A DNA stretch of 64,000 nucleotides from a virus, in the IMG/VR virus record IMGVR_UViG_3300018080_003942, positions 27,578 to 91,577 of that record. The stretch is one strand, 5' to 3'. The position numbers and the translations under genes were made by a program. This document shows positions 7,167 to 56,017 of the stretch, one piece after another. The first letter of the stretch is position 1; each line of letters opens with the position of its first letter. The notes beneath the pieces were generated by a model. It did no database searches, was not told the origin of the DNA, and saw only the letters and a list, made by a program, of their open reading frames with translations.

Positions 7167-7723
7167 CAGGTGGTCTGGGCGATTACGCGTTGGAGAAGGG
7201 AGCCATGAGTCACGACCAGCTCGTGCTTGGCGGTCAGGGGATCCAGCTTGGCCTTGAAGGTCAAGCCAAGGGACCCGAGCATCCCAGTGCGCTGTCGCTC
7301 CAAGTCCTCTTGGATGACCTCTACGGGGATGCGGGTCTCCTTGGTGGTGATGTCGAAGTACCGAAACGGCCCGTCAACGAACTGCTCGAGCTCCTCAGTC
7401 ATGGGCATGATCAGGAGATCAGCGGGGAAACCCTCAAACACGCGATACGTGTTGTGGTCCGTGAAGTGGTAGGCGAGGGCGATGTTCGGGCGCGCTAGCT
7501 TGCGCGCGTCTTGCACCGCCTTCTCCCACCACCGAGGCTGGAACCGGAAGTCGGTCCCTGTTCTCGACTTGGCCTCGACAAACCACCCGTAAGGGGTGCC
7601 GAGGTCTCCTCGGAAGAACGAGCCGCAGCCAGATCCGGGGACCCGCTGCAAGCCGGTCTCTCGCATCAGGCGAAGCTCGTGCGCGTCACCCGTCCTCTTG
7701 TTCGAGGCCGGCCTCGAGCGCAT
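7166..7723 (-). CDS. PD-(D/E)XK resolvase-like nuclease
   Basis: About 185 aa from the ATG at 7723 (MRSRPASNKRTGDAHELRL), which minimises overlap with recA. The arrangement KRTGDAHE, GSGCGSFFRGDLGTP and FVEAKSRTG fits the nuclease core (early Glu, then RGD, then E-x-K) seen in Hjc-like and phage Holliday-junction resolvases. A Gln/Trp-rich helix follows (FQPRWWEKAVQDAR). It is translated just after RecA and before the kinase, in keeping with recombination. Assignment is by motif pattern only. Confidence 0.7.
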   Translation of the reverse strand: MRSRPASNKRTGDAHELRLMRETGLQRVPGSGCGSFFRGDLGTPYGWFVEAKSRTGTDFRFQPRWWEKAVQDARKLARPNIALAYHFTDHNTYRVFEGFPADLLIMPMTEELEQFVDGPFRYFDITTKETRIPVEVIQEDLERQRTGMLGSLGLTFKAKLDPLTAKHELVVTHGSLLQRVIAQTT

Positions 7724-9296
7724 CGAGGGGGTCACCTCCCTCTGCTTCTTCTGAATCTTCGGCAGCCCCAGCGGCTGGCTGATGTCCTTTGAGTCGGTCA
7801 TGGGCTTCGTGAATGAGATCCTGGAGAGGGTCGTCGAAAGGCCCATAGAGATGGGCCTCTGCGTCGAGGTGGCCTCGGAAGGTCCGCGGCATGATTGCGG
7901 CAGCCAGCGGATAGCGCAGGCGATAACCGATGTCGGGCCGGCTCAGGAAGGCCTTGATGTCCGCGATCTTGGTGAAGGTGCGGCCGAGGATCTCATACCC
8001 CCGCGAGGTCTTCTTGAACCACCTGTCATCAGGCGGCAGCTCCCAAGCGCCCTCAGATAGGGCTTTCAGGAGCTCAAACACGCGCGCACCCTCGTCGGTC
8101 TCGCCGGCTTCGTAGTGGACACGGTCAAACAGACGATCCTTGAGGAACAGCCGAGCCTGGGCGCTAGCGTTGGTGCCGCCCCCGGACGCCTTGTCCTTCT
8201 TCATCGTCATCGTCATCTCCGCCATGGCGGCGGGCTCACGGTAGCCGCCGTCCCACGGGTTGTAGCGGGTGCGGATCTCCATGTTCTGCATGAGCGCGTA
8301 CTTGAGGGCGTTACCGCCCGACGCGATCTTGGAGGGACCGCCGTAGCCCCCGGGGCCCGACTGGATGTTGGCGCGCCACTGGTTGGTCTGGATGAACGTG
8401 GGCATCACGCCCGACTGGTTCCAGGCCTCGTTTTGCGCGCTGATCAGCTTCGGGTACAGGCGGGACAGCTCACGAGCCCGGGACGCGGTCTGCTTACGAC
8501 CCGCCAGGTCCTCGTCAATCGCAGCCATGGCCACACTGTCGAGGATGATCAGATCGGCAGCGCCGTTCTTGATCAGGTGGGAAGAGAGGATCTCGACCTG
8601 GTTCAAGGACGTGATGCGGGCCACAGCTACTGTCGAATCCGGGCTGATGAGTAGGCCCTCTTCGACCTCCTCGTACTCAGCCATCGGATCGCTCATGTCC
8701 ACACGATCCGCGATCTTGAACCCCCAGGACTGTGCCCATAGCGGGTCGAAGTCACCCTCGACATCGATGAAGAGGACGGTCGACACATCGTTGGCACCGC
8801 AGCCGCAGCGGATCACGTTATCCCGCTCACCCAGGTCATCATGGAAGGTGAGGATCGGAGTCATGCAGCGCCGGCAAGTGCGCTGGAAGGAGCCGGCCAG
8901 TAGGTAGCACATGAGCGACTTGCCCACATGCTCCGGGCCAATGATCTGCGTCCGGGTGCCGATGGCCATGCGGATGTTCATGTCCATCTCGACCAGTCCC
9001 GTGAACAGGAGCCGGCGGCGGAACTCAGCTGCGGCCTGCGTCGCTCGCCAAGAACCCGTGGGCTGCTTGTTGAGCTCGACTGTCGCAGACTTCATCCCGT
9101 CGCTGAACCGAGCGCTGGTGCGTGTGTCGCGCGGGCTCTTCACTCCGGCCGTCAGCGCCCGCTTCGGAGCGTCGTCCTTGGCTGCGGCCTTCTTGGTCCG
9201 CTTCTTGGCCTTCTTCTTGGTCGCCTTCTTCTTGGTGGCCTTCTTGGTCACCTTCTTTGTGGCTTTTTTGGCGACCTTCTTCTTCTTGGCCGCCAT
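7686..9296 (-). CDS. RecA/RadA-like recombinase with zinc-binding insertion
   Basis: This 536-aa ATPase should drive strand exchange or replication restart. After a roughly 45-residue Lys/Ala/Thr tail resembling histone H1, the RecA core has Walker A GPEHVGKS (120-127), a catalytic FIDVEGDFD segment (about 176-184), Walker B LIILDS (249-254) and a QTNQWR loop near 305. Inserted after Walker A is a CRRC (141-144) and CGC (164-166) cluster likely to bind zinc, unusual for RecA. The C-terminal part is longer than in host RecA and ends acidic. It is co-translated with the resolvase and an SF2 helicase. Confidence 0.88.
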   Translation of the reverse strand: MAAKKKKVAKKATKKVTKKATKKKATKKKAKKRTKKAAAKDDAPKRALTAGVKSPRDTRTSARFSDGMKSATVELNKQPTGSWRATQAAAEFRRRLLFTGLVEMDMNIRMAIGTRTQIIGPEHVGKSLMCYLLAGSFQRTCRRCMTPILTFHDDLGERDNVIRCGCGANDVSTVLFIDVEGDFDPLWAQSWGFKIADRVDMSDPMAEYEEVEEGLLISPDSTVAVARITSLNQVEILSSHLIKNGAADLIILDSVAMAAIDEDLAGRKQTASRARELSRLYPKLISAQNEAWNQSGVMPTFIQTNQWRANIQSGPGGYGGPSKIASGGNALKYALMQNMEIRTRYNPWDGGYREPAAMAEMTMTMKKDKASGGGTNASAQARLFLKDRLFDRVHYEAGETDEGARVFELLKALSEGAWELPPDDRWFKKTSRGYEILGRTFTKIADIKAFLSRPDIGYRLRYPLAAAIMPRTFRGHLDAEAHLYGPFDDPLQDLIHEAHDRLKGHQPAAGAAEDSEEAEGGDPLDALEAGLEQEDG

Positions 9297-44749: not shown

Positions 44750-44900
44750 GGTTGCCAGGATGCACACGAACTACTGGAGTGGTGGACCTGAGCTGAGCCG
44801 GAGTATGGCACCGGATCGAGCCGGATTCAGTGACTGCGTATAGCTCGTTGGGTTTGTCTACCTCGTGGATGAGCTCGGAGTCACGACTCGAGCGGAGTCG

Positions 44901-45058
44901 CCTGCCTCGAGCTCATTGTTGCCATCATCTCGTCTGGTTGATGAGATGGCGGCGGCTCCTCCTCTCCTGTTATCCTGCGCTTACAGTATTCTCGGTGCCC
45001 GAGCTCGACCCATCTCGTCAACCTGACGCGATGATGGCAACAATGAGCTCGAGGCAGG
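44901..45058. repeat. Long inverted repeat (28-bp perfect, about 48-bp total)
   Basis: 44901-44928 and 45031-45058 are exact reverse complements. Pairing extends inward (44929-44948 with 45011-45030, 17 of 20 identical, one mismatch a U-G), leaving a 62-nt apical loop. Flanked by smaller hairpins at 44884-44900 and 45057-45077. Confidence 0.85.
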
Positions 45059-45210
45059 CGCCGCAGCGAGAGGCGCCGTGGCTCAGCCTCGTGGTGGGCA
45101 AACCCACGAGTTATTCGCAGACACTGAAGCCGGCCCGGTTGACATGCTCTGGCTCAGCTCAGGGTCTACCCGTAGGTGCAAGTGTGGCCGAGGTTGCTGT
45201 TGCGCTATCT

Positions 45211-45225
45211 GCGGCGATGCGCCGC
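45211..45225. repeat. Triloop hairpin GCGGCGATGCGCCGC, copy 1
   Basis: Perfect 6-bp arms with a 3-nt loop; the same 13-15 nt recurs at 45557 and 45811. Flanking sequence differs between the copies. Confidence 0.7.
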
Positions 45226-45431
45226 AGGACCCTCAAGTCAAGAGGGAATAGCTCTTCGTGTGCGGGGATTCCAAGGCAAGAGCCTGGATGGGCGCGCAGA
45301 GCATGATCCCGGTCGTGGAGGCGTGCCCGAGCTTTGTACGCGACCCGGTTCGGGTCGAGGATAAAGCGAAGGACCAGCACGCTGTAACGATCCGTGGATT
45401 ATGCTCCGCGCTGTCCCAGCCAGCGCTTCGT

Positions 45432-45545
45432 TGGTAGTGGGAGGCGCCTCCGCTAGGAGGCGACGTCCTCGAGTTGCGCTACTGAAGCGACCACACATGC
45501 TGGCATGTGTAGCTTCAGGTGCGCAGTGCTCGAGGCCCACGACCA
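45432..45545. repeat. Three-way-junction fold in the structured RNA
   Basis: Closing helix TGGT-GTGGG/CCCAC-ACCA (45432-45441 with 45536-45545) holds a 7-bp hairpin (45445-45462) and a long arm of stacked helices: CCTCGAG/CTCGAGG, GCGC/GCGC, CTGAAGC/GCTTCAG and ACACATGC/GCATGTGT. Confidence 0.75.
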
Positions 45546-45556
45546 GTCGTACAGTG

Positions 45557-45571
45557 GCGGCGATGCGCCGC
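45557..45571. repeat. Triloop hairpin, copy 2
   Basis: GCGGCGATGCGCCGC, extended by one more G-C pair (45556-45572). Confidence 0.7.
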
Positions 45572-45810
45572 CTGAAGACGTTGTGGATTAGGCCTCCGGT
45601 AGGCCCGTTCCAGTCTTTCTACTCCCTTGGAAAGGTAGTCACCTCTTGCGAGGCTGGCTGGCTACCTTGGTATCGGCGCTCGTAGAGACTACCCGGTCAC
45701 ACGCCCGCCGGAGGCGGGCTTGTGGACGCGTGGTCTCAACGTAATGTGTCACAGGAGACAGCTCGAGGCGCAGCTCGAGCGGGCCTCCGGCCACAGTTTC
45801 TATCACTTGA

Positions 45811-45823
45811 CGGCGATGCGCCG
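45811..45823. repeat. Triloop hairpin, copy 3
   Basis: CGGCGATGCGCCG, one pair shorter than the other copies. Follows a GGCC-TCC-GGCC hairpin at 45782-45792. Confidence 0.65.
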
Positions 45824-45988
45824 CCGCGGAAGTCAGATGGGCTAGCTAGACCACTTCTTTCCTTGCTCCGCCGAAGATGTACCTGTTGGCAGCCCTGGTA
45901 CTGGGCTTTTGGCTATGAAGAACGGATCATCGGGGCCAACTACCCTCCTGCTCTTCGTGCCTGTTGGTACCGGCCTTTGGCCGGCAGC

Positions 45989-46021
45989 CGAGCCTGCTCC
46001 GGATTATGTGGAGCAGACTCG
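45989..46021 (-). repeat. 12-bp hairpin at the 5' end of the RNA
   Basis: On the minus strand CGAGTCTGCTCC pairs with GGAGCAGGCTCG through a T-G wobble (C-A on plus), with a 9-nt loop. It starts about 15 nt after the stop codon of the ubiquitin-like gene. Confidence 0.65.
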
Positions 46022-46035
46022 GTTCACTTGGTGCG

Positions 46036-46503
46036 CTAGCCGCGCTCCTTGACGGGGACCTTCATGATGAGGACGTCGCCCTCCTTGAGGGTCATCCCGT
46101 CGGTCACCTCCTGGCCGCCGATGTGCGGCTTCGACCCCTCGGGGGTGCCGAAGCGGCGAGCGTACTCGGTCCGCGCGTCGGCGACCGAGGTGCCGGCGGC
46201 GACGTTGAGGCGGCCGGGCTCGCCCAGACCGTCGGTGGCCGCGGCGGTGACCGTGGCGACCGGACCCGCCTGCGGGGTCTCCTGGGTCGTCGGCGCCGTC
46301 GTGGCGGTGGGAGCGGTGCGCGTCACGGCGACGGCCACCTCGGTGTCCGTGGGCAGACCCGTGGTCTGGTCCCACTTGGTCGGATCCGAGTGGTCGACCT
46401 CGTAGAGCACGGGGTTGCCGGCCGCGTCGTTCGCGGGGGAGTCGGCGTAGCGGATGCGACGGTTGAGGGTGTCGAACGCGGGGCGCTTGATGTTTCCGGT
46501 CAT
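46036..46503 (-). CDS. Ubiquitin-like beta-grasp protein (PRTRC-C-like)
   Basis: 155 aa. The low-complexity Thr/Ala middle (about 55-95) separates an N-terminal segment from a C-terminal beta-grasp-like domain (RLNVAAGTSVADARTEYARR, then VTDGMTLKEGDVLIMKVPV), which has the terminal turn (GxxLKEGDxL) of ThiS/ubiquitin folds. It ends KERG, a single terminal Gly, not GG; PRTRC-C proteins end similarly in a single Gly. With E1-, E2- and JAMM-like genes immediately upstream it is the likely modifier. Assignment depends on context and fold pattern. Confidence 0.65.
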   Translation of the reverse strand: MTGNIKRPAFDTLNRRIRYADSPANDAAGNPVLYEVDHSDPTKWDQTTGLPTDTEVAVAVTRTAPTATTAPTTQETPQAGPVATVTAAATDGLGEPGRLNVAAGTSVADARTEYARRFGTPEGSKPHIGGQEVTDGMTLKEGDVLIMKVPVKERG

Positions 46504-46526
46504 GGTGCAGAGGGTGTGTAGAGGGT

Positions 46527-47261
46527 TCAGGTGAGTTGGAGGGAGTGCTGCGTCTGCGGCGCGGCTTTCCCACCGAGCACGTCGACCACGATGGTGTTGA
46601 AGCTGGGCTTCATCGGGTCGTCGATCGTCAGGACCTGGGCGAACCAGGTCTGCAACATGGCCTGGGCGACCGCTTGGTTCGCCAGAGCCAGTTGCGGCTG
46701 CGTCTCGTACTCCTGGGTGCAGTCCAGCTGATCGGGAAACTCGTTCCCAGGAGTCTCATGACGCATCTCGGGGTTCCGTTCGGTGAGCGACGCGCAGACG
46801 TCCTCGCTGTTGATGCGGCGCCAGAGCATGGCCTGGCCGCTGTCGAGGTCGTTGCCGCCGTCCACCCACGTGAACTCGTCGAGCTTGTCGAGCTGCTCCT
46901 CGAGGAAGCAGCGGGTCTTGTTGTTGTCCACGCAGCCGAACAGCGTGACGCCCTCGACCAACCACTCACGGTGGTGGTTCAGGAGCCGATCGCTCAGGTA
47001 CATGGAGATCACCCGGACGTCCAGGCCCGGGAAGGTGTCTCGCAGGGTTCGGGCCATGATCTCGGCTTTGTTCTGGCCGATGGCCGCGGCGCCGTGCTGG
47101 CGCGCGAGGTTGTGGTCCTCGACCTCGTCGCCGTCGATGATGAAGAGGGTCGGATTCTGGATCCGATCCCCCACCATCTCAGGCGGGTGGGCGAGAAGAC
47201 GAGCGAGCGGCTCGGCTAGGTGGTAGCCGATGCCGCCCGCTCCGAGGATGGCGTAGATCAT
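46527..47261 (-). CDS. ThiF/E1-like adenylyltransferase
   Basis: 244 aa from the ATG at 47261; the longer frame is shadow of the JAMM gene. Rossmann motif LGAGGIGYHL (6-15), acidic pair IDGDEVEDHNLARQ (42-55, with Arg54-Gln55), Lys65 in GQNKAEI and CVDNNKTR (110-117) are the ThiF/MoeB/E1 signature set that binds ATP and activates a ubiquitin-like C-terminus. Cys156 or Cys181 could form the thioester. It resembles PRTRC ThiF. Separated from the JAMM gene by 4 nt and from the modifier by 23 nt. Confidence 0.88.
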   Translation of the reverse strand: MIYAILGAGGIGYHLAEPLARLLAHPPEMVGDRIQNPTLFIIDGDEVEDHNLARQHGAAAIGQNKAEIMARTLRDTFPGLDVRVISMYLSDRLLNHHREWLVEGVTLFGCVDNNKTRCFLEEQLDKLDEFTWVDGGNDLDSGQAMLWRRINSEDVCASLTERNPEMRHETPGNEFPDQLDCTQEYETQPQLALANQAVAQAMLQTWFAQVLTIDDPMKPSFNTIVVDVLGGKAAPQTQHSLQLT

Positions 47262-47265
47262 GAGG

Positions 47266-49164
47266 TCAGGGGTAGATGGGGAGGGTGGCTTCTGTTTCGG
47301 ACTTGTTGCAGAAGGCGATCTCCTCGAGGAGGACATCGTCTTCCATGTCGTCGGGGTCCTCGAGGACTCCGTCCATCTCGAGCACCAGTCGATCCATCTG
47401 ATCGAGGATCTCTTGGTAGTCCTTGCGGTAGGGAATGCCGGCGTTCTGGGCCGCCTTGCGGACGACAAAGTAGGTCAGCCGGAACCACTCGAGCAGGACG
47501 CCGTCGGAGTCCTCTCGCGAGAATGCCTCGACGTAGCTCAGGTTGGTCTCGATCACGGTCTCGATCACGGTGTCGATCGACGTCTCGGGGAACACAGTTT
47601 TCACCGTCGGGTCGGCGTAGACGTATTTCGAGAGCTTGTCGATCCGGGCATCCAGTGCGATCGACTTGAATAGCCGGTCGAGAAGGTCGTCGATGCGATT
47701 CATCACCTCGTCGATGACGTCTCGAACCAGCATGCTGTAGAGGGTCTGACGACTCTCGGATGCGCTGTTCTGCGCTTCTTCGACGATCTCTTCGATCGTG
47801 GGGGCGTTATCGAACCACTCACTGGTCGAGGCGTGGTTCATGAGCAGATGCAGGGCTAGGGCCGTAGCGTTGCTCGACGTCAGACTGTCCTTGAACGAGG
47901 TGCAGTACGCCCACACGGCTCGTGGGAAGGTCGTTTGCTGACCCTCCGCCTTCTTGATCAGCTGAAGGGGGTAGTGCGCTTGCGGTGAGATCACCATGCC
48001 GTAGAAGCCGGTGTGCATCCGCTGGATGCGGAACTTCTTATCAGCGACCAGCGAAGGGCCAGAGGCTGTCTTGCTGACAGGTACCAGTGAGGTAGTCGTC
48101 TTCTTCGTCGTCTGGCCAAGGCCACCCTGCGCCCCCGTACCCCCAGTCTTGCCGCCAGGAGTCGAAGGCGTACCCGCTTTGCCGCCGGTCCACTTTTTCG
48201 AGCCATAGCCGCCATACCTGCTGGTCTTGGCTTTCTTCTCCGCCTCCTTGATGGCCTCGCTGGCCAACTTGAACGTGGTAAGACAACGGGCGGCCTCGCC
48301 CATCCTGTCCTTCCAACGCCCCAGGCTTTCCATCGACCCACAGAAGGTCATCACAGTGCTCGTGTCGACGTCCTCGAGCTTGTCGACGCTGAGACCGACG
48401 GCGAGCTCGTCGGGATCGACCCCGGCCTTCAGCATGGCTTCGCACAGTCCGGGGTGGGCGACCCGGTTCAGCCACAGCTGAATCAGATCCAGGCCGCCCT
48501 CCACGAAAGGGATGTCGAACAACTCCTCGAGACCGGTCGCGTGGCGGATGCCCTGCGCCTTCTCGTTGCGGTAGCCGGGGAGGGCGGTGACGAACGACGG
48601 GCACACCGAGAAGGGCGGCTTGTCCACGTTCCCGAAGGTGATGTGGAAGCCCGTCTGGTTGAGCTCGTTGGCGTCGTCGGTCGAGCTGTGGTAGGCTCCA
48701 CCAGCGCCGTGACTGTGCGCGGTGCCGACGCAGATGAACTCGACAAGCTCTCCATCCTCGCAGATGGGGCAAGCGTTGCCGGCTTCGAGCTCGATCGAGC
48801 CGATGCGACAGGTCGTGCAGAAGCTCTTGACGTTGGGATCGTACTTCACGTGCCCCGCGGAGGCGGTGTACCACGGCGGACTGACGAGGGTGTAGGCGTC
48901 GTCGACCGGCCCTCGGTGGAAGAGCACGAAGGCCTCGGTCTTCCACAGGCGGTAGACCTCGGCGAAGTAGCGGTAGACGAACATCGTCTCCGCCATGGAG
49001 ATCTTGGGCCAGTTGGTGAGGTCCAGGTCACGCTGGATCTGGTCGGTTTCACCGAGGTCCTCGGCCCGGGCGGGAACGAAGGCCTGAGCCCAGGCGGCCC
49101 CGCCTGGGCCGATGGTCTTCAGCACGTGGGCTTGGTTGCCCTTGTAGTAGATGTCGGTGGTCAT
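47266..49164 (-). CDS. JAMM/MPN-domain isopeptidase-like protein (PRTRC-A-like)
   Basis: 632 aa from the ATG at 49164 (MTTDIYYKGN). Zinc-ribbon cysteines C116-C119 and C132-C135 are followed by the JAMM metalloprotease motif: His150-Ser-His152, ten residues, Asp163. JAMM enzymes remove or mature ubiquitin-like proteins. The 450-residue C-terminal part is helical with a Gly/Thr/Lys-rich linker (about 325-375) and has no recognised domain; it is much longer than a plain JAMM protein. Its start overlaps the preceding gene by 4 nt. Confidence 0.8.
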   Translation of the reverse strand: MTTDIYYKGNQAHVLKTIGPGGAAWAQAFVPARAEDLGETDQIQRDLDLTNWPKISMAETMFVYRYFAEVYRLWKTEAFVLFHRGPVDDAYTLVSPPWYTASAGHVKYDPNVKSFCTTCRIGSIELEAGNACPICEDGELVEFICVGTAHSHGAGGAYHSSTDDANELNQTGFHITFGNVDKPPFSVCPSFVTALPGYRNEKAQGIRHATGLEELFDIPFVEGGLDLIQLWLNRVAHPGLCEAMLKAGVDPDELAVGLSVDKLEDVDTSTVMTFCGSMESLGRWKDRMGEAARCLTTFKLASEAIKEAEKKAKTSRYGGYGSKKWTGGKAGTPSTPGGKTGGTGAQGGLGQTTKKTTTSLVPVSKTASGPSLVADKKFRIQRMHTGFYGMVISPQAHYPLQLIKKAEGQQTTFPRAVWAYCTSFKDSLTSSNATALALHLLMNHASTSEWFDNAPTIEEIVEEAQNSASESRQTLYSMLVRDVIDEVMNRIDDLLDRLFKSIALDARIDKLSKYVYADPTVKTVFPETSIDTVIETVIETNLSYVEAFSREDSDGVLLEWFRLTYFVVRKAAQNAGIPYRKDYQEILDQMDRLVLEMDGVLEDPDDMEDDVLLEEIAFCNKSETEATLPIYP

Positions 49165-49586
49165 GTGGTGATCAGGGGTGGGTGGAATCGACGTAGGACG
49201 GTCAAGACCGCCTGGGTGTCTTCGTTGATGTCTTGCTCGGCTAGTAGGTGATCGAGCCGGCGCATCCAATCACGTAGGGTCGTGAGCTGCTCGGGGCCCA
49301 TGCTCGCCGGAGGGTCGACGACAGGACGTCGGTCGCTCTCGTCTCGGATCAAGTTGAAGCGGATGTTGTTGATCCTTCCACCGTCTAGCGCAACTGGATA
49401 GGTGCGTTGGAAGATCTGACCAAGAGCCTCGATCATCTCTCGAGTAAGACCCGTCCCCTCAAGATCGAGAAGGTGCGGTCGGTTCTCGAGGATCCGAGAT
49501 AGAAGCTCCTCGCGTCTCCGGATAATGGCCTGGTGATCATTGTGTCGATCACGCGCGCCTTGCACGGTGTCCAGAATGGTGGTCAT
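49161..49586 (-). CDS. Hypothetical protein within the conjugation cassette, 141 aa
   Basis: Start at 49586 (MTTILDTVQGARDR), 4-nt overlaps on both sides. Helical and charged (QAIIRRREELLSRILENRPH). No known family. Tight coupling between the E2-like and JAMM genes suggests a dedicated subunit or adaptor. Confidence 0.65.
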   Translation of the reverse strand: MTTILDTVQGARDRHNDHQAIIRRREELLSRILENRPHLLDLEGTGLTREMIEALGQIFQRTYPVALDGGRINNIRFNLIRDESDRRPVVDPPASMGPEQLTTLRDWMRRLDHLLAEQDINEDTQAVLTVLRRFHPPLITT

Positions 49587-50425
49587 CGGACCACCTCTCG
49601 CCACTTCTCGGCCGCCGTACCGAGCTCCCGGCCCAGTACGATCTCATCGACGTCCGTCTGCCAGGTCATGATGCGATCCTCGGTCCAGCGCTGCCATCGA
49701 CAGAACTGCCAGAGCATGACAGTGTTCATGTTCAGGCCCAGATCACGCCGCCTGTCGTAGTCGGTGTAGTCACCTTCGGGGAGTTGCTCGAAGTACGGGA
49801 CCTCTCGAAGCGCTTCGGGAACCTCAAACCCCTCAGGGAGCGGCCCGCTGAAAGGTGGCATGGTCAGGGAGTGCTCGTAGTGCGCGTTGTAGCCGGACTC
49901 GTTGATGAGCTTGAGGACCATCTCCGGGATCGACTGGAGCCCGTTGTACCGGTACTGGCGGAACACAGCACCCGTGCACATGCCTCCCGTATCTTGCTGG
50001 TTCGGTAGGAATGATTTGTACAGAACCGGGGTGTACCCCGCCTCCAGATGCGGCTGCTGCTTGGTGAAGAAGCAGCGGGCATCGGAGAGGCGCCCGTCGT
50101 AGATCGAGATGATGAAGACGCGCGCAGGCATGGCGACCAGGAATCGAAGACCCTCCGGCCAGCCGCGGTTCTCGCGGACGTCGATGGAGATCCTCTCAGC
50201 CCGCGGAGGCACGACTGCCATGAAGTGCTCGTTGTGGGCATCCTTGGTGTGTGCCAGGATGTTTACGTAGGGGTGGTACGGAAAGAGGGCGCCAGCGCGC
50301 CGGCCTCGTTCCTCGAGGGCGGTCACGACGTCTTCTTCCCGCGTGATGCGGTTGACGTGAACCGTTTGATGGATCACGTGACCATCGACGATGACGAGTC
50401 GATCGTGGGTTTCGAAGTTGGTCAT
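49583..50425 (-). CDS. E2-like conjugating protein (PRTRC-B-like)
   Basis: 280 aa. The segment LYKSFLPNQQDTGGMCTGAV (about 135-154) with conserved Asn, Gly and Cys150 follows the PRTRC system protein B pattern (N...G.vC.G), a family placed among prokaryotic E2-like proteins. Upstream strands (FLVAMPARVFIISIYDGRL) fit the UBC-like fold. Cys150 would carry the modifier. Shares ATGA overlaps with the reverse transcriptase gene and the 141-aa gene. The E2 call is by pattern and context. Confidence 0.65.
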   Translation of the reverse strand: MTNFETHDRLVIVDGHVIHQTVHVNRITREEDVVTALEERGRRAGALFPYHPYVNILAHTKDAHNEHFMAVVPPRAERISIDVRENRGWPEGLRFLVAMPARVFIISIYDGRLSDARCFFTKQQPHLEAGYTPVLYKSFLPNQQDTGGMCTGAVFRQYRYNGLQSIPEMVLKLINESGYNAHYEHSLTMPPFSGPLPEGFEVPEALREVPYFEQLPEGDYTDYDRRRDLGLNMNTVMLWQFCRWQRWTEDRIMTWQTDVDEIVLGRELGTAAEKWREVVR

Positions 50426-51525
50426 GGGAGGTACGCGCGTGTCTCGGCGCTGTAGTTGGTGGGGGTGTTGTGGTGCACGTCTTGCGCGACACGCAGTTGT
50501 AGTTGGAGCGAGGCTCCTTGATCAGGGTTGATGAAGTTGACGTGGTTGACGAGGCCGGCGAGGTGGTCAAAGTTCACCGGCACAGGGCCTCGGTGCGTCA
50601 GCTCTCCCCCACGGGGACAGCGGCCGAAGTGCGCGTCGCAGATGATCTTGTGCAGCCGGGCGCGAAGCGCGCGCCGTCGAGGCCTGGGAGCGCTTAGCTT
50701 CTCGTTGACGACGACGCCGCAGACCGTCATGCGACTGCCGATGGAGCGGAATCGGATCTTTTCGGGGGCGACCTTGTAGCCCAGCTTTTTCAGGAACCCG
50801 ATGACGGGGTACTGGAACTGGTACAGCTTTCTGTAATCCGCCGTGAAGGTCATGTCGTCGCTATAGCGGGTGTACGCGATCGGCAGGAGTCTGATCTGAG
50901 TCTGCGTCTTTCGCCGGCGCTCTCCGTGGTTGTCGACCCACCGCATCGTGGGGTTGGTCCGCCAGGACTCGATCAGCTTCAGGATGCCGAAGTCCACCTG
51001 AGCCCCTGCCAGGTTGGAGAGGAAGGGGGACGTGGGGGCTCCTTGTGGTAGGCCACCATCCAAGAAGCAGGCGCGTTTGACTCTGTCAAGGAAGAGCCTG
51101 TCGGCACGTGACATCGGTTGCATGTACCCCCTGGTCAGGAAGTACTCCAGCTGCTCGAGGACGACGTGGGGAGACACGGACGGGAAGAAGTCCCGCAGAT
51201 CGATGTCCAGCTTGTACCGGTGACCTACATGCGGGGCGGCGTTGGTGTGGATACCACGCTTGCGGACGTAGGCATGAGCTGCTGGGGAGGCCCCGATCCC
51301 GAGCGCTTTGAGCTCGCTGAGGATGAGCTTTTGAGCAGCCATTAGCTCCGGGCAAGGGATCTGGAGCTTTCGCATCTTCTGACGTGTCCGACCGTTCGAA
51401 AGCGTCTCGAGTACCGGGACTTCTCGACCATCCCGGGTACGCCTGGTCTTGGGGATTCGTGCGAATCGGTAGTGCTCAGCTTGAGCGGTGTCCGTCAGGA
51501 CATTGAATGATGGGTAGCCAGCCAT
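50422..51525 (-). CDS. Retron-type reverse transcriptase
   Basis: 367 aa. Catalytic core visible in order: NAxxH (TNAAPH, 94-99), motif A LDIDLRDFFPSV (106-117), motif B GLPQGAPTSPFLSN (158-171), catalytic YSDD (221-224; Ser replaces the usual Ala), LGYKVAPEK (248-256) and VCGVVVN (268-274, in the place of the retron VTG motif). NAxxH plus the V-x-G motif points to the retron branch, not group II introns or DGRs. No extra domain is fused. It heads an overlapping gene chain with ubiquitin-like conjugation genes, an association I do not know from described retrons. Confidence 0.93.
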   Translation of the reverse strand: MAGYPSFNVLTDTAQAEHYRFARIPKTRRTRDGREVPVLETLSNGRTRQKMRKLQIPCPELMAAQKLILSELKALGIGASPAAHAYVRKRGIHTNAAPHVGHRYKLDIDLRDFFPSVSPHVVLEQLEYFLTRGYMQPMSRADRLFLDRVKRACFLDGGLPQGAPTSPFLSNLAGAQVDFGILKLIESWRTNPTMRWVDNHGERRRKTQTQIRLLPIAYTRYSDDMTFTADYRKLYQFQYPVIGFLKKLGYKVAPEKIRFRSIGSRMTVCGVVVNEKLSAPRPRRRALRARLHKIICDAHFGRCPRGGELTHRGPVPVNFDHLAGLVNHVNFINPDQGASLQLQLRVAQDVHHNTPTNYSAETRAYLP

Positions 51526-51534
51526 GATCTACCC

Positions 51535-51585
51535 TCAGATGACGGCGCAGATTGCGCTCAAGGCAAGAAGTAGCATGTGCTTCAC
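51535..51585 (-). CDS. Possible 16-aa hydrophobic leader peptide
   Basis: GTG at 51585 overlaps the upstream TGA (GTGA) and the stop is just before the reverse transcriptase ribosome site (GAGGG). The peptide after the first three residues is hydrophobic (LLLALSAICAVI). It may couple translation or be a mini membrane peptide. Confidence 0.3.
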   Translation of the reverse strand: MKHMLLLALSAICAVI

Positions 51586-52184
51586 TCCGTGGTTTGAGGA
51601 AGTAGCGGGAGGTCCGCCTGGTGAAAGGCCTGGAAGATCGCCGAGGCGACGGTCTTCAGACGGCTTTCGAAGATCAGGTGGTCCGGGTGAGACATCTCCC
51701 CAGCGGGCGGGAGCTCTTTGAACAGCCGGTCGATGATGGCTACGAGCAGGTCGTTAGCGTCGGCCTGGCTGACCAGGAGGCTCCGGGGGCGGAGGTTGAT
51801 GTTCAGATTGGAGGCTATGCCCCGTAGCACCGGTGGACGGGACCGGGCCGCGTGGACGGCGAAGGCGATTGAGGCTAGCCGGTGGTTGTTGTCGGCCGCA
51901 GACGGTGTGGTGGTGGCGGGGTTGTGCTTGCGGAGCGGGTCCGTGTCGGGGACCGGGTCGGGCAGCACCAGGGGACCTACGCCGTTTTTGGCCAATCGGT
52001 GGTAAAGGCTTAGAGCTGCCAAAGCCCCGAGTCCCATAGCCGGCAGCAATGCGCGGTTGGAGACTCGAGCGGGGCGTGGTGCGTCGACTGAGTCGGTCGA
52101 CCACCAGGCGGACAGCCCTTCACGAACGGGCCCTTCATAGAGGGGCCACGTCTTCGTCAAGGCATCAATGACGGGGACGTACAT
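51582..52184 (-). CDS. Hypothetical protein, 200 aa, first gene of the RT operon
   Basis: Contains a possible transmembrane stretch (ALLPAMGLGALAALSLY, about 46-62), a Pro-rich linker and a helical C-terminus (DLLVAIIDRLFKELP). No family recognised. As the first gene upstream of the reverse transcriptase it could be its effector or regulator. Confidence 0.6.
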   Translation of the reverse strand: MYVPVIDALTKTWPLYEGPVREGLSAWWSTDSVDAPRPARVSNRALLPAMGLGALAALSLYHRLAKNGVGPLVLPDPVPDTDPLRKHNPATTTPSAADNNHRLASIAFAVHAARSRPPVLRGIASNLNINLRPRSLLVSQADANDLLVAIIDRLFKELPPAGEMSHPDHLIFESRLKTVASAIFQAFHQADLPLLPQTTE

Positions 52185-52319: not shown

Positions 52320-52988
52320 ATGTCGCAACGACCCACAGGTTCTCGCCCCGCCCCGCGCGGCTCGATGATGTCCGCTGACGCCGCTGCCGCCGACGTGCGG
52401 GCTCGGCAAGAAGCCGCAGCCCAGGAGCAGCTACAGCAGCAGGCCCAGGCGGCCAATGAGGCTCCCTCTGAGGAGCAGACCGAGCTCGACGAGGCCATCA
52501 GCTCCCAGATCCCCAAGGAGGTTCAAACCTCCCGCGGGATGCGCCCCTACGCCCAGTTCAAGAAGGAGTTCGACGAGGTCTATGAGCAGGTCCGTGACAA
52601 GGACCACCTGCTCTCTGGTCGAGTGACATACTCGACCGAGCTGGCTGGTCTTCCTATCACCATCCAGAGCCTGCGCCAACGGGACCGGCGGCTGCTGGCG
52701 GCCTGGGCCCCTGACGCCCGGGATGAGCATCGGGCATTCATGGATGGGGAGTTCCAGTACCGCTCCCGCCTGATGGTCCTGTCCCTGGTCCGGGTTGGGG
52801 ATGTGGAGTTCCCGAGCCTGCCGATCAAGACGGATCCGGAATCTTGGGAGAAGCAGGACCCGATCCAGCAGGCCCTGTCCTACGTTGAAGACTGGGACGA
52901 GACCCTGTTCAACGTGATCTTCGGGCTCCTATCTGACCTCGAGACCGCCAAGCACTTCGCGCTGCTGGAGAACCTGGGAAACCCCTAG
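52320..52988 (+). CDS. Tail assembly chaperone (G-type)
   Basis: 222 aa. Gln/Ala-rich disordered N-terminus (about 25-50) and a helical C-terminus (QQALSYVEDWDETLFNVIFG). The stop codon is preceded by a GGGAAAC slippery heptamer and followed by a 9-bp stem, giving a frameshift product with the next ORF. The arrangement, at the head of tail genes, is typical of the G/GT chaperone pair of long-tailed phages. Confidence 0.8.
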   Translation: MSQRPTGSRPAPRGSMMSADAAAADVRARQEAAAQEQLQQQAQAANEAPSEEQTELDEAISSQIPKEVQTSRGMRPYAQFKKEFDEVYEQVRDKDHLLSGRVTYSTELAGLPITIQSLRQRDRRLLAAWAPDARDEHRAFMDGEFQYRSRLMVLSLVRVGDVEFPSLPIKTDPESWEKQDPIQQALSYVEDWDETLFNVIFGLLSDLETAKHFALLENLGNP

Positions 52989-53039
52989 CCACCCCGCTCG
53001 CGTACTACCGAGTCCGCCTGCTGCTGCGGGGCGGGGTGG
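52976..53039 (+). promoter_or_regulatory. -1 programmed ribosomal frameshift signal
   Basis: Heptamer G-GGA-AAC at 52976-52982, 6-nt spacer containing the zero-frame stop, then arms CCACCCCGC (52989-52997) and GCGGGGTGG (53031-53039) forming a perfect 9-bp GC stem with a 33-nt loop. Confidence 0.85.
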
Positions 53040-53329
53040 ATCTAGCGGAGTTCTCCTTCCTCGAGCAGCAAGACTTCATCGAGTACGAGCGGAAGGAGCA
53101 GGCGATGCGGTTCGTCGAGCAGGCGACCCAGATCTACGCCACCGCCAAGGATACGGAAAGTGCTAAGGCCCTCGTTGAGCGGCTCCGGGAGGAGCTCTTC
53201 ATCGGCCAGGCCCAGGCCAAAGCTGAGCGCACCAAGCGTCTGAGTGACGAGCTGGTCGAGGCGATCCACAAGACCTATTCGATCACTACGGCCGGCGGAG
53301 CCGCTATCCTTGAGGTGAGCAATGACTGA
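52982..53329 (+). CDS. T-type frameshift extension of tail chaperone
   Basis: This -1 frame is open from the heptamer to 53329 and adds 115 residues, making a fusion of about 336 aa. It has no ATG of its own near the start; an in-frame GTG at 53036 exists but the continuous frame back to the slip site favours frameshifting. Sequence is helical and charged (FLEQQDFIEYERKEQAMRF). Confidence 0.8.
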   Translation, partial: PLATPLAYYRVRLLLRGGVDLAEFSFLEQQDFIEYERKEQAMRFVEQATQIYATAKDTESAKALVERLREELFIGQAQAKAERTKRLSDELVEAIHKTYSITTAGGAAILEVSND

Positions 53330-53882
53330 ATCTTTCACCTCCCAGGTCCTCCGGCAGACCATCAAGCAGGTGCGGGCCGGGTCTCGAGACCTGACCAGCA
53401 CCCGGCTTGAGCCTTACTACCGAGGGACGCGGCGCCTCTCGGCGGAGGAGGTGGCCAGCCGAGCCGCGGCCTCGGCCGCTTTTCGGCAGGAGGCTGGATT
53501 CCGACCTCTCTCCACGGCTGAGGCGGCCCAGCAGATCGGGGACAGCGGGGGCCGGGCCCTGTTCCTGACCCTCATGAGCGGGCTGGGACTGGAGCGTGAG
53601 TACGACGAGGACGTCGTCTCTCAGGATGCTGTGGAGGGGGTCCCGGATCTCGGGGACCGGACGACCTTTGCGGACACCAAAGCCGCCTCAGGCGCCTCGC
53701 TGACGGTCCAGGAGGCCCGTGCCGGCCTGCGGGCGGTCGAGGGCCTAGCCAGCCGCCTCCCCACGGGCGGGCAGGTCAAGCACATCCTTGAGCCCGCGCA
53801 GCCGGCCCTGGCGGATGATGATTCCGTGGTCCAGGAGCGGCTCGAGAAGATGTGGGACTACGTCCGCGACCTGTTGCCGTAG
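53322..53882 (+). CDS. Hypothetical tail-region protein, 186 aa
   Basis: Overlaps the T extension by 8 nt. Ala/Glu/Arg-rich, largely helical, ending in a Trp/Asp-rich helix (QERLEKMWDYVRDLLP). Located between chaperone and tape-measure-like protein, so it is probably tail related. Family unknown. Confidence 0.6.
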   Translation: MTESFTSQVLRQTIKQVRAGSRDLTSTRLEPYYRGTRRLSAEEVASRAAASAAFRQEAGFRPLSTAEAAQQIGDSGGRALFLTLMSGLGLEREYDEDVVSQDAVEGVPDLGDRTTFADTKAASGASLTVQEARAGLRAVEGLASRLPTGGQVKHILEPAQPALADDDSVVQERLEKMWDYVRDLLP

Positions 53883-53896
53883 GTCCGGTCGGAGCG

Positions 53897-53912
53897 GGGG
53901 TTTATACTCCTA
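53897..53912 (+). promoter_or_regulatory. GGGG-N8-CC element, copy 3
   Basis: GGGGTTTATACTCCTA, with TTTATACT where copies 1 and 2 have TAGACATT and TATACACT. 51 nt upstream of the tape-measure-like ATG, whose start CATGCCCGA repeats the CATGCCCGA of the other copies. A promoter for the late gene is likely. Confidence 0.45.
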
Positions 53913-53934
53913 GCAGGCGTAGGAGCCGCTTCTC

Positions 53935-53955
53935 TGGCACTGGGTGCCAGTGCCA
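53935..53955. repeat. CACTGG-N3-CCAGTG palindrome, copy 3
   Basis: Arms extend to 9 bp (TGGCACTGG/CCAGTGCCA) around GTG. Lies between the promoter-like element and the ATG at 53963, in the leader of the late gene. Confidence 0.55.
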
Positions 53956-53962
53956 GTAAACC

Positions 53963-56017
53963 ATGCCCGACCCCTATCCGAACCAGAACCAGGCGCTGTA
54001 CGCCCTCCAGCAGCGGATCCAGGCCCAGCAGCAGCAGCAAATGCGGGCTGAGTCCATGGCCGTGGGGGGCACGAACTCCATGGCCACTGAGTCCATGCGG
54101 GTCTCGATGATGCTGCAACAGCAGCAGCTTCAGCTCCAGATGCAGCAGCAGATGCAGCAGCTGCGCTCGTCCATGTACGGGACGTTCACGGCTGGGGCGG
54201 GCGCCGCATCCCCGGTCATGCGCCAGAACTTCGGCTCTCTGGTGATGGGGGCTGGGGTGGCTCGGGGCGTCAACACGATGACCGGCGGGCTCCTATACCC
54301 GGACTACAACTACCATTGGGGCCTCACCCGGGCTCGGATGGAGCAGGACGCGTCGGACGAGCTCCGTCAGCGGATGTTCAGCGATGTCGGGAACGAGTTG
54401 ATCGCTGGCCTGGTCCCGGACGTGATCCGACGCCGGACCGGGGCGGCCTTCGCAGGCTCGAGGCCTGAGTTTGTGCGGGCAGCTTATGCTCGCTACTCCG
54501 GTTTGCGGGGCGGGGACGTGGCCGCGTTCGGCGGTGGAGGTAACGTTGACGGACCTGGTCTGCGATTGCGGGCTGACGCGACACAGAGCTCAGCGCGGGC
54601 GTTCGAGGCCGGGCTTTTGAACCTCAACCGCCGGCTTGGGTATGCCCTCGGTAGCGATGAGGTGAGCATGCTCCAGGACGTCACGGCAGGCCTCTCGGTC
54701 CACCAGGCCTTCCGAGGTCAGCGCGCTGGGGAGTCGGTCCTTGCCTCGGATAACCGCCAGGTTCAGAGCCTGATTAGCAGCATTCATGACCTGAGTCGTG
54801 CTCTCCAGCTGAACGTTGATCAAACGCGCGAGATGGTGAACATGGGCCGGCAGCACGGCTTGATGCCTAACAGCTCGGCGTTCCAGGCTCTGGGAGCCAT
54901 CGGCCAGGGCGGAAACCTGATCCAGATGAGCAACGCGGATCGGGCCCGGTACGCTATGCCGATCATGGCTCAGGCCCGCGGGATGGGCATGGACGCGGTC
55001 ACCGCAGTCAACCGGCGGTTCGGTAGTGCGGAGGGCGTCCTAGGCCGCTACCGGGCTGGCCTCATGTCTGATGCGCAGCTGTTCCGATTCGGCGGGACCA
55101 GTGAGGACGACGCCGCGATGCGCGTCGCGGAGTATCAAGAGCGGCTCGGTCTGGGATACGCCTCGCGGTTCGGAGGCAGTCTTGGGGCACTCTCCTATGC
55201 GGGGCAGTCTGTCGGAGGTGCTATCAGCACCGGGGCCCGGTTGGGTGCGGTTCTTGGATCCAACCCTCTGGCAGGTTTGCGTGCTTCTATGAGTGGGGCG
55301 GTGCGCTCGAACATGGCAGGCTCGATGCAGATGGATGCTTACGCCTATGCGCAGGATGCCTACCGCATCGGCGAATCGATTCAACCGGGCGGCGGTGAGG
55401 TACTTGCCGCTCGAGTATTCGGCCAGATGATCGGTGAGTCTGACCCGGTTCAGGCTATGAACATGTATCGGCAAATTGCCGGTGAGGTCGGCGCTGTCCA
55501 GCGTGGTACGTCGCTCAGTGGGGCAGAGTCTCTGCGGTTTGTCCGTACCCGTCGAATGATGCAGCAGGTGACCGGCGAAGCCCCGGATATGTTGGATACA
55601 GCTAGGCTGTATCAATCTTTGGCGGGACGGGATGTGACCGCGGTGAGTGTTGCCCGGGCGCTAGCCCTCTCGGGAGCAGGCAGCAACACGCAGACGTCGC
55701 GCGAGTCTATCAACAGTGGCTATCGACAGGCGTCCGTGGATAAGTTCCGAAAGCTGATTACGGGACAGACGGATCCGTCGCTCCTAGCCGTGATTGCCGA
55801 GATCTCCAACCTAGATGGGACGGGACTATCGGTGGATGTTCTTCAGGACATGGCCATCAACAAGAACAGCTCTGGGTGGAACACCGACGCTGTCAGTGTT
55901 CGGGAGCTCCTGACGATGGATCAGTTCCTCGGTAACTTTGGGAAGATCAACAAGAACCCAGACAAGCCCCCGAGCGGGACTGAGAACAATCCGATCTACG
56001 TGAAGACGGTGAGCTGA
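53963..56017 (+). CDS. Tape-measure-like tail protein, 684 aa
   Basis: Gln-rich N-terminus (QQRIQAQQQQQMRAESMA), then long helical Ala/Gly/Met/Arg-rich stretches. The position directly after the tail chaperones is where a tape measure protein is expected. It is short for one and lacks clear transmembrane segments, so another internal tail protein is possible. Confidence 0.55.
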   Translation: MPDPYPNQNQALYALQQRIQAQQQQQMRAESMAVGGTNSMATESMRVSMMLQQQQLQLQMQQQMQQLRSSMYGTFTAGAGAASPVMRQNFGSLVMGAGVARGVNTMTGGLLYPDYNYHWGLTRARMEQDASDELRQRMFSDVGNELIAGLVPDVIRRRTGAAFAGSRPEFVRAAYARYSGLRGGDVAAFGGGGNVDGPGLRLRADATQSSARAFEAGLLNLNRRLGYALGSDEVSMLQDVTAGLSVHQAFRGQRAGESVLASDNRQVQSLISSIHDLSRALQLNVDQTREMVNMGRQHGLMPNSSAFQALGAIGQGGNLIQMSNADRARYAMPIMAQARGMGMDAVTAVNRRFGSAEGVLGRYRAGLMSDAQLFRFGGTSEDDAAMRVAEYQERLGLGYASRFGGSLGALSYAGQSVGGAISTGARLGAVLGSNPLAGLRASMSGAVRSNMAGSMQMDAYAYAQDAYRIGESIQPGGGEVLAARVFGQMIGESDPVQAMNMYRQIAGEVGAVQRGTSLSGAESLRFVRTRRMMQQVTGEAPDMLDTARLYQSLAGRDVTAVSVARALALSGAGSNTQTSRESINSGYRQASVDKFRKLITGQTDPSLLAVIAEISNLDGTGLSVDVLQDMAINKNSSGWNTDAVSVRELLTMDQFLGNFGKINKNPDKPPSGTENNPIYVKTVS

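Follow-up and report, generated by a model that had tools for sequence, protein, structure and literature searches.

Bil and other bacterial ubiquitination-like antiviral operons carry an E1, an E2, a JAMM protease and a ubiquitin-like modifier (UBL) in one operon; we know of none that contains a reverse transcriptase (RT) or a non-coding RNA (ncRNA). These operons are encoded by the host and act against phages. In the type II cyclic-oligonucleotide-based anti-phage signaling system (CBASS), which comprises Cap2 (E1-E2), Cap3 (JAMM) and a CD-NTase, the E1-E2 enzyme conjugates the nucleotide polymerase and thereby stimulates it (PMC10449767). Retrons consist of an RT, an msr-msd ncRNA and an effector. 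Their RTs are marked by an NAxxH motif in region X, and their ncRNAs have complementary a1 and a2 ends, with the priming guanosine immediately adjacent to a1 (PMC6868368). Here we describe a locus within a stretch of 64,000 nucleotides (the window), corresponding to positions 27578-91577 of the 91,577-base IMG/VR virus record IMGVR_UViG_3300018080_003942, in which a retron-type RT is encoded together with an E2-like protein, a JAMM protease, an E1-like enzyme and a UBL. We read it, at a probability of roughly 0.55, as a phage-encoded variant of a retron in which a complete, reversible UBL-conjugation cassette stands in for the usual toxic effector.

The locus shares with retrons such as Retron-Eco1/Ec86 the RT group and the NAxxH motif and, in relatives from phages of rumen and gut Clostridia (the Clostridia type), the a1/a2 ends, the priming G and the msr-like stem-loops. 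It differs from them in its partner, a four-part UBL cassette and not a toxin, and in its carriers, which are large phages; moreover, the window has several candidate ncRNAs, situated downstream of the cassette, whereas the Clostridia type has its ncRNA next to the RT. The window E1, JAMM and E2 are nearest to the models of the PRTRC cassette (PRTRC_ThiF, PRTRC_A and PRTRC_B, respectively), although all matches fall below the curated cut-offs (E1, 55.3 bits versus 144.75 for TIGR03736; JAMM, 19.6 versus 101.8 for TIGR03735), and an RT and ncRNA are added here. Type II CBASS likewise encodes a nucleic-acid or nucleotide polymerase with E1, E2 and JAMM functions (PMC10449767), but the window has separate E1 and E2 proteins, a true UBL and an RT as the polymerase; no CD-NTase model matched any of the seven adjacent window proteins scanned. 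In contrast to Bil-type operons, the cassette is encoded by the phage.

Gene order and identity of the reverse transcriptase

Six genes follow one another on the minus strand, as the initial annotation had read from the sequence: the RT (367 aa, 50422-51525), the E2-like protein (280 aa, 49583-50425), a 141-aa protein of unknown function (49161-49586), the JAMM/MPN metalloprotease (632 aa, 47266-49164), the ThiF-like E1 (244 aa, 46527-47261) and the UBL (155 aa, 46036-46503). The first four are chained by overlaps of 4 nt (50425/50422, 49586/49583 and 49164/49161) and the later genes are separated by gaps of 4 nt (47262-47265) and 23 nt (46504-46526), again in agreement with that annotation.

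Profile searches matched the RT to RVT_1 (4.4e-14) and to retron models (up to 2.4e-44). Its best relatives of solved structure are retron RTs, with Ec86 first (2.7e-20), and the NAxxH motif aligns with theirs; in the window protein it reads NAAPH in region X, and the catalytic core reads YSDD. The YxDD motif was conserved in 38/38 aligned sequences. The triplet of region Y, VTG in most retrons, is VCG in the window and in the related phage locus L008, VTG in loci L043, L039 and L273 (all described below) and NLG in the Clostridia type. By its profile matches, its relation to Ec86 and its NAxxH motif, the window RT is a member of the retron group, and its earlier description as retron-type is borne out.

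Membership of the group-II, defence-associated RT (DRT) or abortive-infection (Abi) classes was rejected, the scores being much weaker than those of the retron models, with Drt2 giving only a weak match. An assignment to the diversity-generating retroelements (DGR), in which an RT with the motif IPIGNLTSQ adjoins a variable lectin-like protein, was also discarded, as the window RT reads LPQGAPTSP. DGR RTs were seen in two other phages with a UBL cassette of their own, beside formylglycine-enzyme-like variable proteins (L036:5098-6120 and L066:2774-4270).

Recurrence of the RT with the cassette

Single-sequence searches of viral contigs with the window RT and E1 gave no matches and alignments were needed. 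An alignment search with E1 returned 67 loci from viral contigs. One of them, L008, located on a 183-kb phage contig, has the same six genes in the same order. It shares some flanking genes with the window: the divergently transcribed genes at 52320-56017, among them one for a Q-rich protein of 684 aa, appear to correspond to genes arranged in the same order next to the L008 cassette, so that L008 seems to be distantly related to the window phage and not an independent gain. In two further loci, L043 and L039, a retron-type RT lies directly or nearly directly downstream of E1. RT matches about 27 kb away from the cassette (L058 and L059) and the DGR RTs of L036 and L066 were left out of the pairing count. 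In a search from the RT side, 15 of 80 loci had a same-strand E1 no more than 3 kb away; they include L086, with a window-type set of RT, E2, JAMM, E1 and UBL, and a group of Clostridia-phage loci whose gene order is a 124-aa gene, UBL, a protein of about 515 aa, JAMM, E1 and RT.

An alignment of this Clostridia-type RT group returned 80 viral loci and 4 bacterial contigs, all four from Clostridia. A PH...C.G motif is invariant in the ~515-aa protein, with H and C present in 37/37 sequences; it resembles an E2 active site, and from this motif we infer that the protein is the E2. On the same strand and within 3 kb of the RT, E1 was present in 73/80 viral loci, JAMM in 71, UBL in 66 and the E2-like gene in 68, these counts being loci and not independent events, because some loci are near-duplicates. 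Six of the seven loci without a near E1 end less than 2 kb upstream, and the seventh has its E1 5.8 kb away. The bacterial contigs had the E1 cassette in 4/4 cases, as opposed to 1/76 generic bacterial retron RTs taken from the same scan as control. The initial annotation had named as grounds for refutation that homologues of the RT and the cassette never co-occur elsewhere, or that structure predictions show no E2 or ubiquitin fold; co-occurrence proved strong, and the modifier has a predicted ubiquitin fold (see below).

The single positive generic retron, L273, is located on a contig of a metagenome-assembled genome of Omnitrophota and reads RT, E2, a 97-aa protein, JAMM, E1 and a 71-aa UBL. 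Since the six-gene order recurs in both L008 and this contig, the arrangement in the window is more than a chance one. In L273 (8004-12606) the six genes are followed by a RadC-like JAB gene. Other arrangements of RT and cassette were found in L039, L043, L093, L139 and L088.

In a tree of 74 RT sequences the cassette label required 5 changes (5-7 in bootstrap replicates), compared with 20.6 for shuffled labels, and none of 500 shuffles was as low. The window, L008 and L086 formed one clade (support 100/99), the Clostridia type a second (100/98), and L043, L093 and L139 a third. The cassette-linked RTs may have a single origin. As judged from these sequences, the pairing of RT and cassette is found in more than one RT lineage, several in all, and the two are stably linked.

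Conserved features of the conjugation proteins

The window E1 matched ThiF (4.7e-14) and, under its curated cut-off, PRTRC_ThiF (5.8e-15). The GxGGxG nucleotide loop and C181 were present in 71/71 aligned relatives, and the cysteine was conserved in 38/38 sequences of another alignment. The JAMM protein has the motif HSHx7SxxD, with matches to Prok-JAB (2.8e-5) and PRTRC_A (5.3e-4); H150, H152, S160 and D163 are invariant in the alignment and the residues of catalysis were conserved in 38/38 sequences. Just before this motif the window protein, in common with that of L008, has a four-cysteine, zinc-ribbon-like insert (CxxC...CxxC); it also has a long C-terminal extension.

Profile searches with the E2-like protein by itself gave no family match. 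Among its aligned relatives, 23/28 matched Prok-E2_D, and P100, N142 and C150 were invariant, C150 being the putative catalytic residue within GGMCTG (Prok-E2_D/PRTRC_B type). The UBL has a low-complexity N-terminus, a beta-grasp domain at about residues 80-152 and a C-terminus ending in ...KERG. Its C-terminal beta-grasp domain was modelled by AlphaFold2 with a predicted local distance difference test (pLDDT) of about 74-96, and matched SUMO1 (Foldseek 3.3e-4, probability 1.0) and archaeal ubiquitin. Judged by sequence, the active-site features of E1, E2, JAMM and UBL are intact, in line with the full set of neighbours that had been named at the outset.

The UBL gene of L088 (334-963) encodes three tandem Ubl domains joined by GRKG junctions, in the manner of polyubiquitin, which suggests that the JAMM may process a UBL precursor.

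Template RNA in the Clostridia type

The template RNA was missed in the initial annotation. In the Clostridia-type phages, the stretch just after E1 pairs with the stretch just before the ribosome binding site of the RT. Over 44 representatives the a1/a2 pairing score was 7.94, versus 6.62 +/- 0.17 when the partners were swapped (20 swaps, of which the highest gave 7.06). For the strong-pairing cases the base right after a1 was G in 21/24 (background 0.18, binomial 3.5e-13), versus 6/41 in the swapped control. In the best-studied group, a1 is followed by two short stem-loops and then by an msd-like middle. From this layout, the members of the Clostridia type are assigned a retron ncRNA of msr/msd organization immediately 5' of the RT.

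The msd-like middle aligned at 0.59, versus 0.57 for shuffled sequence, compared with identities of 0.76, 0.80 and 0.75 for the RT, the E1 and the 5' part of the ncRNA, respectively. In a wider set, with RTs 71-81% identical, the middles were also near shuffle level. Hypervariability of the msd is claimed only modestly, because a single near-identical pair differs in its middle (L179/L180) and L202/L205 keep theirs.

In L179 and L180 (E1-RT gap at about 7722-7982) the RT and E1 genes are about 95% identical and the 5' part of the ncRNA is nearly identical, with completely different msd-like middles; a mechanism of rapid replacement is possible. In L178 the ncRNA is separated from the RT by an inserted gene (7310-7976) similar to the activase of anaerobic ribonucleotide reductase (radical SAM). 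An HNH endonuclease gene lies between E1 and RT in L093 (7303-7950) and L139 (7303-7926), and in L139 a structured RNA candidate is found between E1 and the HNH gene.

Candidate template RNAs in the window

The 1.2 kb of non-coding DNA directly after the UBL gene of the window comprises three same-strand units. Each of them includes the hairpin GGCGGCGCATCGCCGCC or a closely similar version of it. Folding was measured as z against dinucleotide shuffles, coding controls giving 0 to -2.4. Unit 3 (44762-45263, minus strand; z -14.8) has a candidate a1 sequence GCACACGAA followed by G, a candidate a2 sequence TTCGTGTGC and inverted repeats; its fold comprises an outer stem of 9 bp, two short stem-loops and a very long, imperfect, msd-like hairpin. 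Unit 2 (45416-45661, minus strand; z -7.9) has an outer stem CCAGCCAGC/GCTGGCTGG, with no G after it, stem-loops and an msd-like hairpin. Unit 1 (45700-46010, minus strand; z -2.3) is a weak candidate that shares the repeated hairpin. The small hairpin GCGGCGATGCGCCGC forms the direct repeat family D1 (no strand assigned) at 45209-45226 in unit 3, 45555-45572 in unit 2 and 45808-45825 in unit 1, with spacings of 346 and 253, and could be a stem-loop recognized by the RT. Duplicated msr/msd repeats have been reported earlier for Retron-Nex1 (PMC6868368).

In L008 a hairpin of its own, GGCGGTAGCGCCG, occurs three times in the same place and the units fold with z of -9.2, -15.7 and -8.4; unit 2 is enclosed by a 12-nt outer stem, CAAACGCAAGTA/TACCTGCGTTTG, with one mismatch, followed by G. 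Downstream of the RT of L088 a closed retron-like fold was found (z -11.0). An Rfam search returned no relevant family.

The templates of the window are proposed to form a tandem array, probably just downstream of the UBL gene and not upstream of the RT, in which one or two of the three units are convincing candidates. Outer stems of 8-9 bp arise by chance in these GC-rich regions, so that the units are good candidates and not proven templates. An annotation of the cassette that ends at 46036 is probably incomplete, as the structured units downstream (44762-46010) probably belong to it.

Proposed mode of action and alternative explanations

Because the pairing recurs in distantly related viruses, the RT and the cassette probably work as one system, and the near-universal retention in the Clostridia-type RT family indicates a function important to those phages. 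The RT would copy the ncRNA or ncRNAs into RNA-linked single-stranded DNA (msDNA), which would stay bound to it. E1 would activate the UBL and E2 would transfer it, the most likely target being the RT-msDNA complex or some protein that this complex retains; removal of the UBL by the JAMM would make conjugation a switch that turns the complex on or off. The nearest logic appears to be the conjugation of the polymerase in type II CBASS. We put forward only tentatively the full scheme, in which a DNA-RNA-protein complex of the retron RT is switched by, or directs, UBL conjugation onto the RT or an msDNA-captured protein, reversibly through the JAMM, with several tandem or rapidly changing msd templates feeding one RT.

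Several observations weigh against a retron variant with a conjugation cassette as its output. The window RT carries VCG instead of VTG, a triplet from which two known retrons also deviate (PMC6868368). Only 3 of the 67 viral loci found with E1 have a retron-type RT; since most related cassettes are without one, the RT marks a subset of cassettes, and the cassette can work alone. Neither the order of the genes nor the 141-aa protein is conserved across lineages. The UBLs of the Clostridia type and of L008 lack a C-terminal glycine. The initial annotation had looked to fold predictions for both modifier and E2; the modifier gave a ubiquitin fold, but the fold search with the E2-like model (pLDDT 70.5, moderate) was not significant, and the E2 assignment consequently rests on sequence homology. 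The gap upstream of the window RT is less than 60 nt and contains no ncRNA. Downstream, the a1/a2 pairing is not unique, several other pairings of 8-9 bp being available, unit 1 folds within the range of the coding controls, and no clear array follows the UBL of L086, a member of the same clade as the window.

Retron and cassette could be operon neighbours only, both useful to large phages, co-transcribed and acting on different targets with no biochemical link. The 64 of 67 E1-found loci without an adjacent retron-type RT agree with this, as do the three other genes of L088 and the HNH gene of L093 and L139 that separate E1 from RT; we nevertheless consider it unlikely, given that the pair is kept almost without exception in a large and diverse phage family, that genes overlap by 4 nt and that several different arrangements all keep RT and cassette together. 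Phage-borne defence or superinfection exclusion, with msDNA sensing an incoming phage or a host nuclease and the cassette tagging host proteins or, as has been suggested for Bil, structural proteins of phages, seems to us possible though doubtful. Retrons serve as sensors against phages (PMC12548924), UBL cassettes take part in defence against them (PMC10449767), and msd-like middles that cannot be aligned between close relatives are what an arms race would predict; the presence of the module in nearly all members of the Clostridia-type RT family is, however, more typical of a core function than of a patchy defence gene, and family scans of the adjacent proteins recognized no toxic effector among the window genes.

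It is improbable that the RT polymerizes without a template or in an accessory role, in the manner of DRT/Abi enzymes, and that the non-coding folds are unrelated to it. The replacement of VTG by VCG or NLG, the missing upstream ncRNA in the window and the weak Drt2 score would fit such an enzyme, but retron models far outscore those of Drt and Abi, and the a1/a2 and priming-G statistics of the relatives speak for a retron template. That the folded, variable templates are restriction-site-rich decoys is hardly credible: the regions look palindrome-rich by eye, an impression with no measured support, and in the window the counts of 4- and 6-base palindromes match dinucleotide shuffles (z 0.3 and 1.1).

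A complex of the retron RT that is switched by, or directs, UBL conjugation would, if real, be the first case of reverse-transcribed DNA tied to a ubiquitin-like pathway. Retrons are known for sensing phages and for toxic effectors, bacterial UBL cassettes for roles in defence or protein modification. Were the two stably united in diverse phages, the msDNA of retrons would gain a new type of output, phages would be seen to use retrons and UBL cassettes on their own behalf, and the control of protein conjugation by reverse-transcribed DNA could be studied in a natural system. Open-access full text, including papers on RT classification, jumbo phages, prokaryotic ubiquitin systems and new retrons, yielded no account of a retron combined with a UBL cassette, and to that extent the earlier statement that no joined system has been described holds; subscription journals and bioRxiv at large were outside the scope, and no priority is claimed.

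Neighbouring genes and source phage

A 200-aa ORF lies just upstream of the RT, less than 60 nt away (51582-52184, minus strand), and its membership in the cassette is unclear; it matched no family and showed no BLASTP homology to the small gene that precedes the RT in L008. A small gene between E2 and JAMM is also present in L008 (163 aa) and L273 (97 aa), and BLASTP detected no homology between the 141-aa protein and the L008 product. The record also encodes a phage DNA polymerase, a DnaB-like helicase, a UvsX-like recombinase and tail-fibre-like proteins, which identify its source as a large tailed phage.

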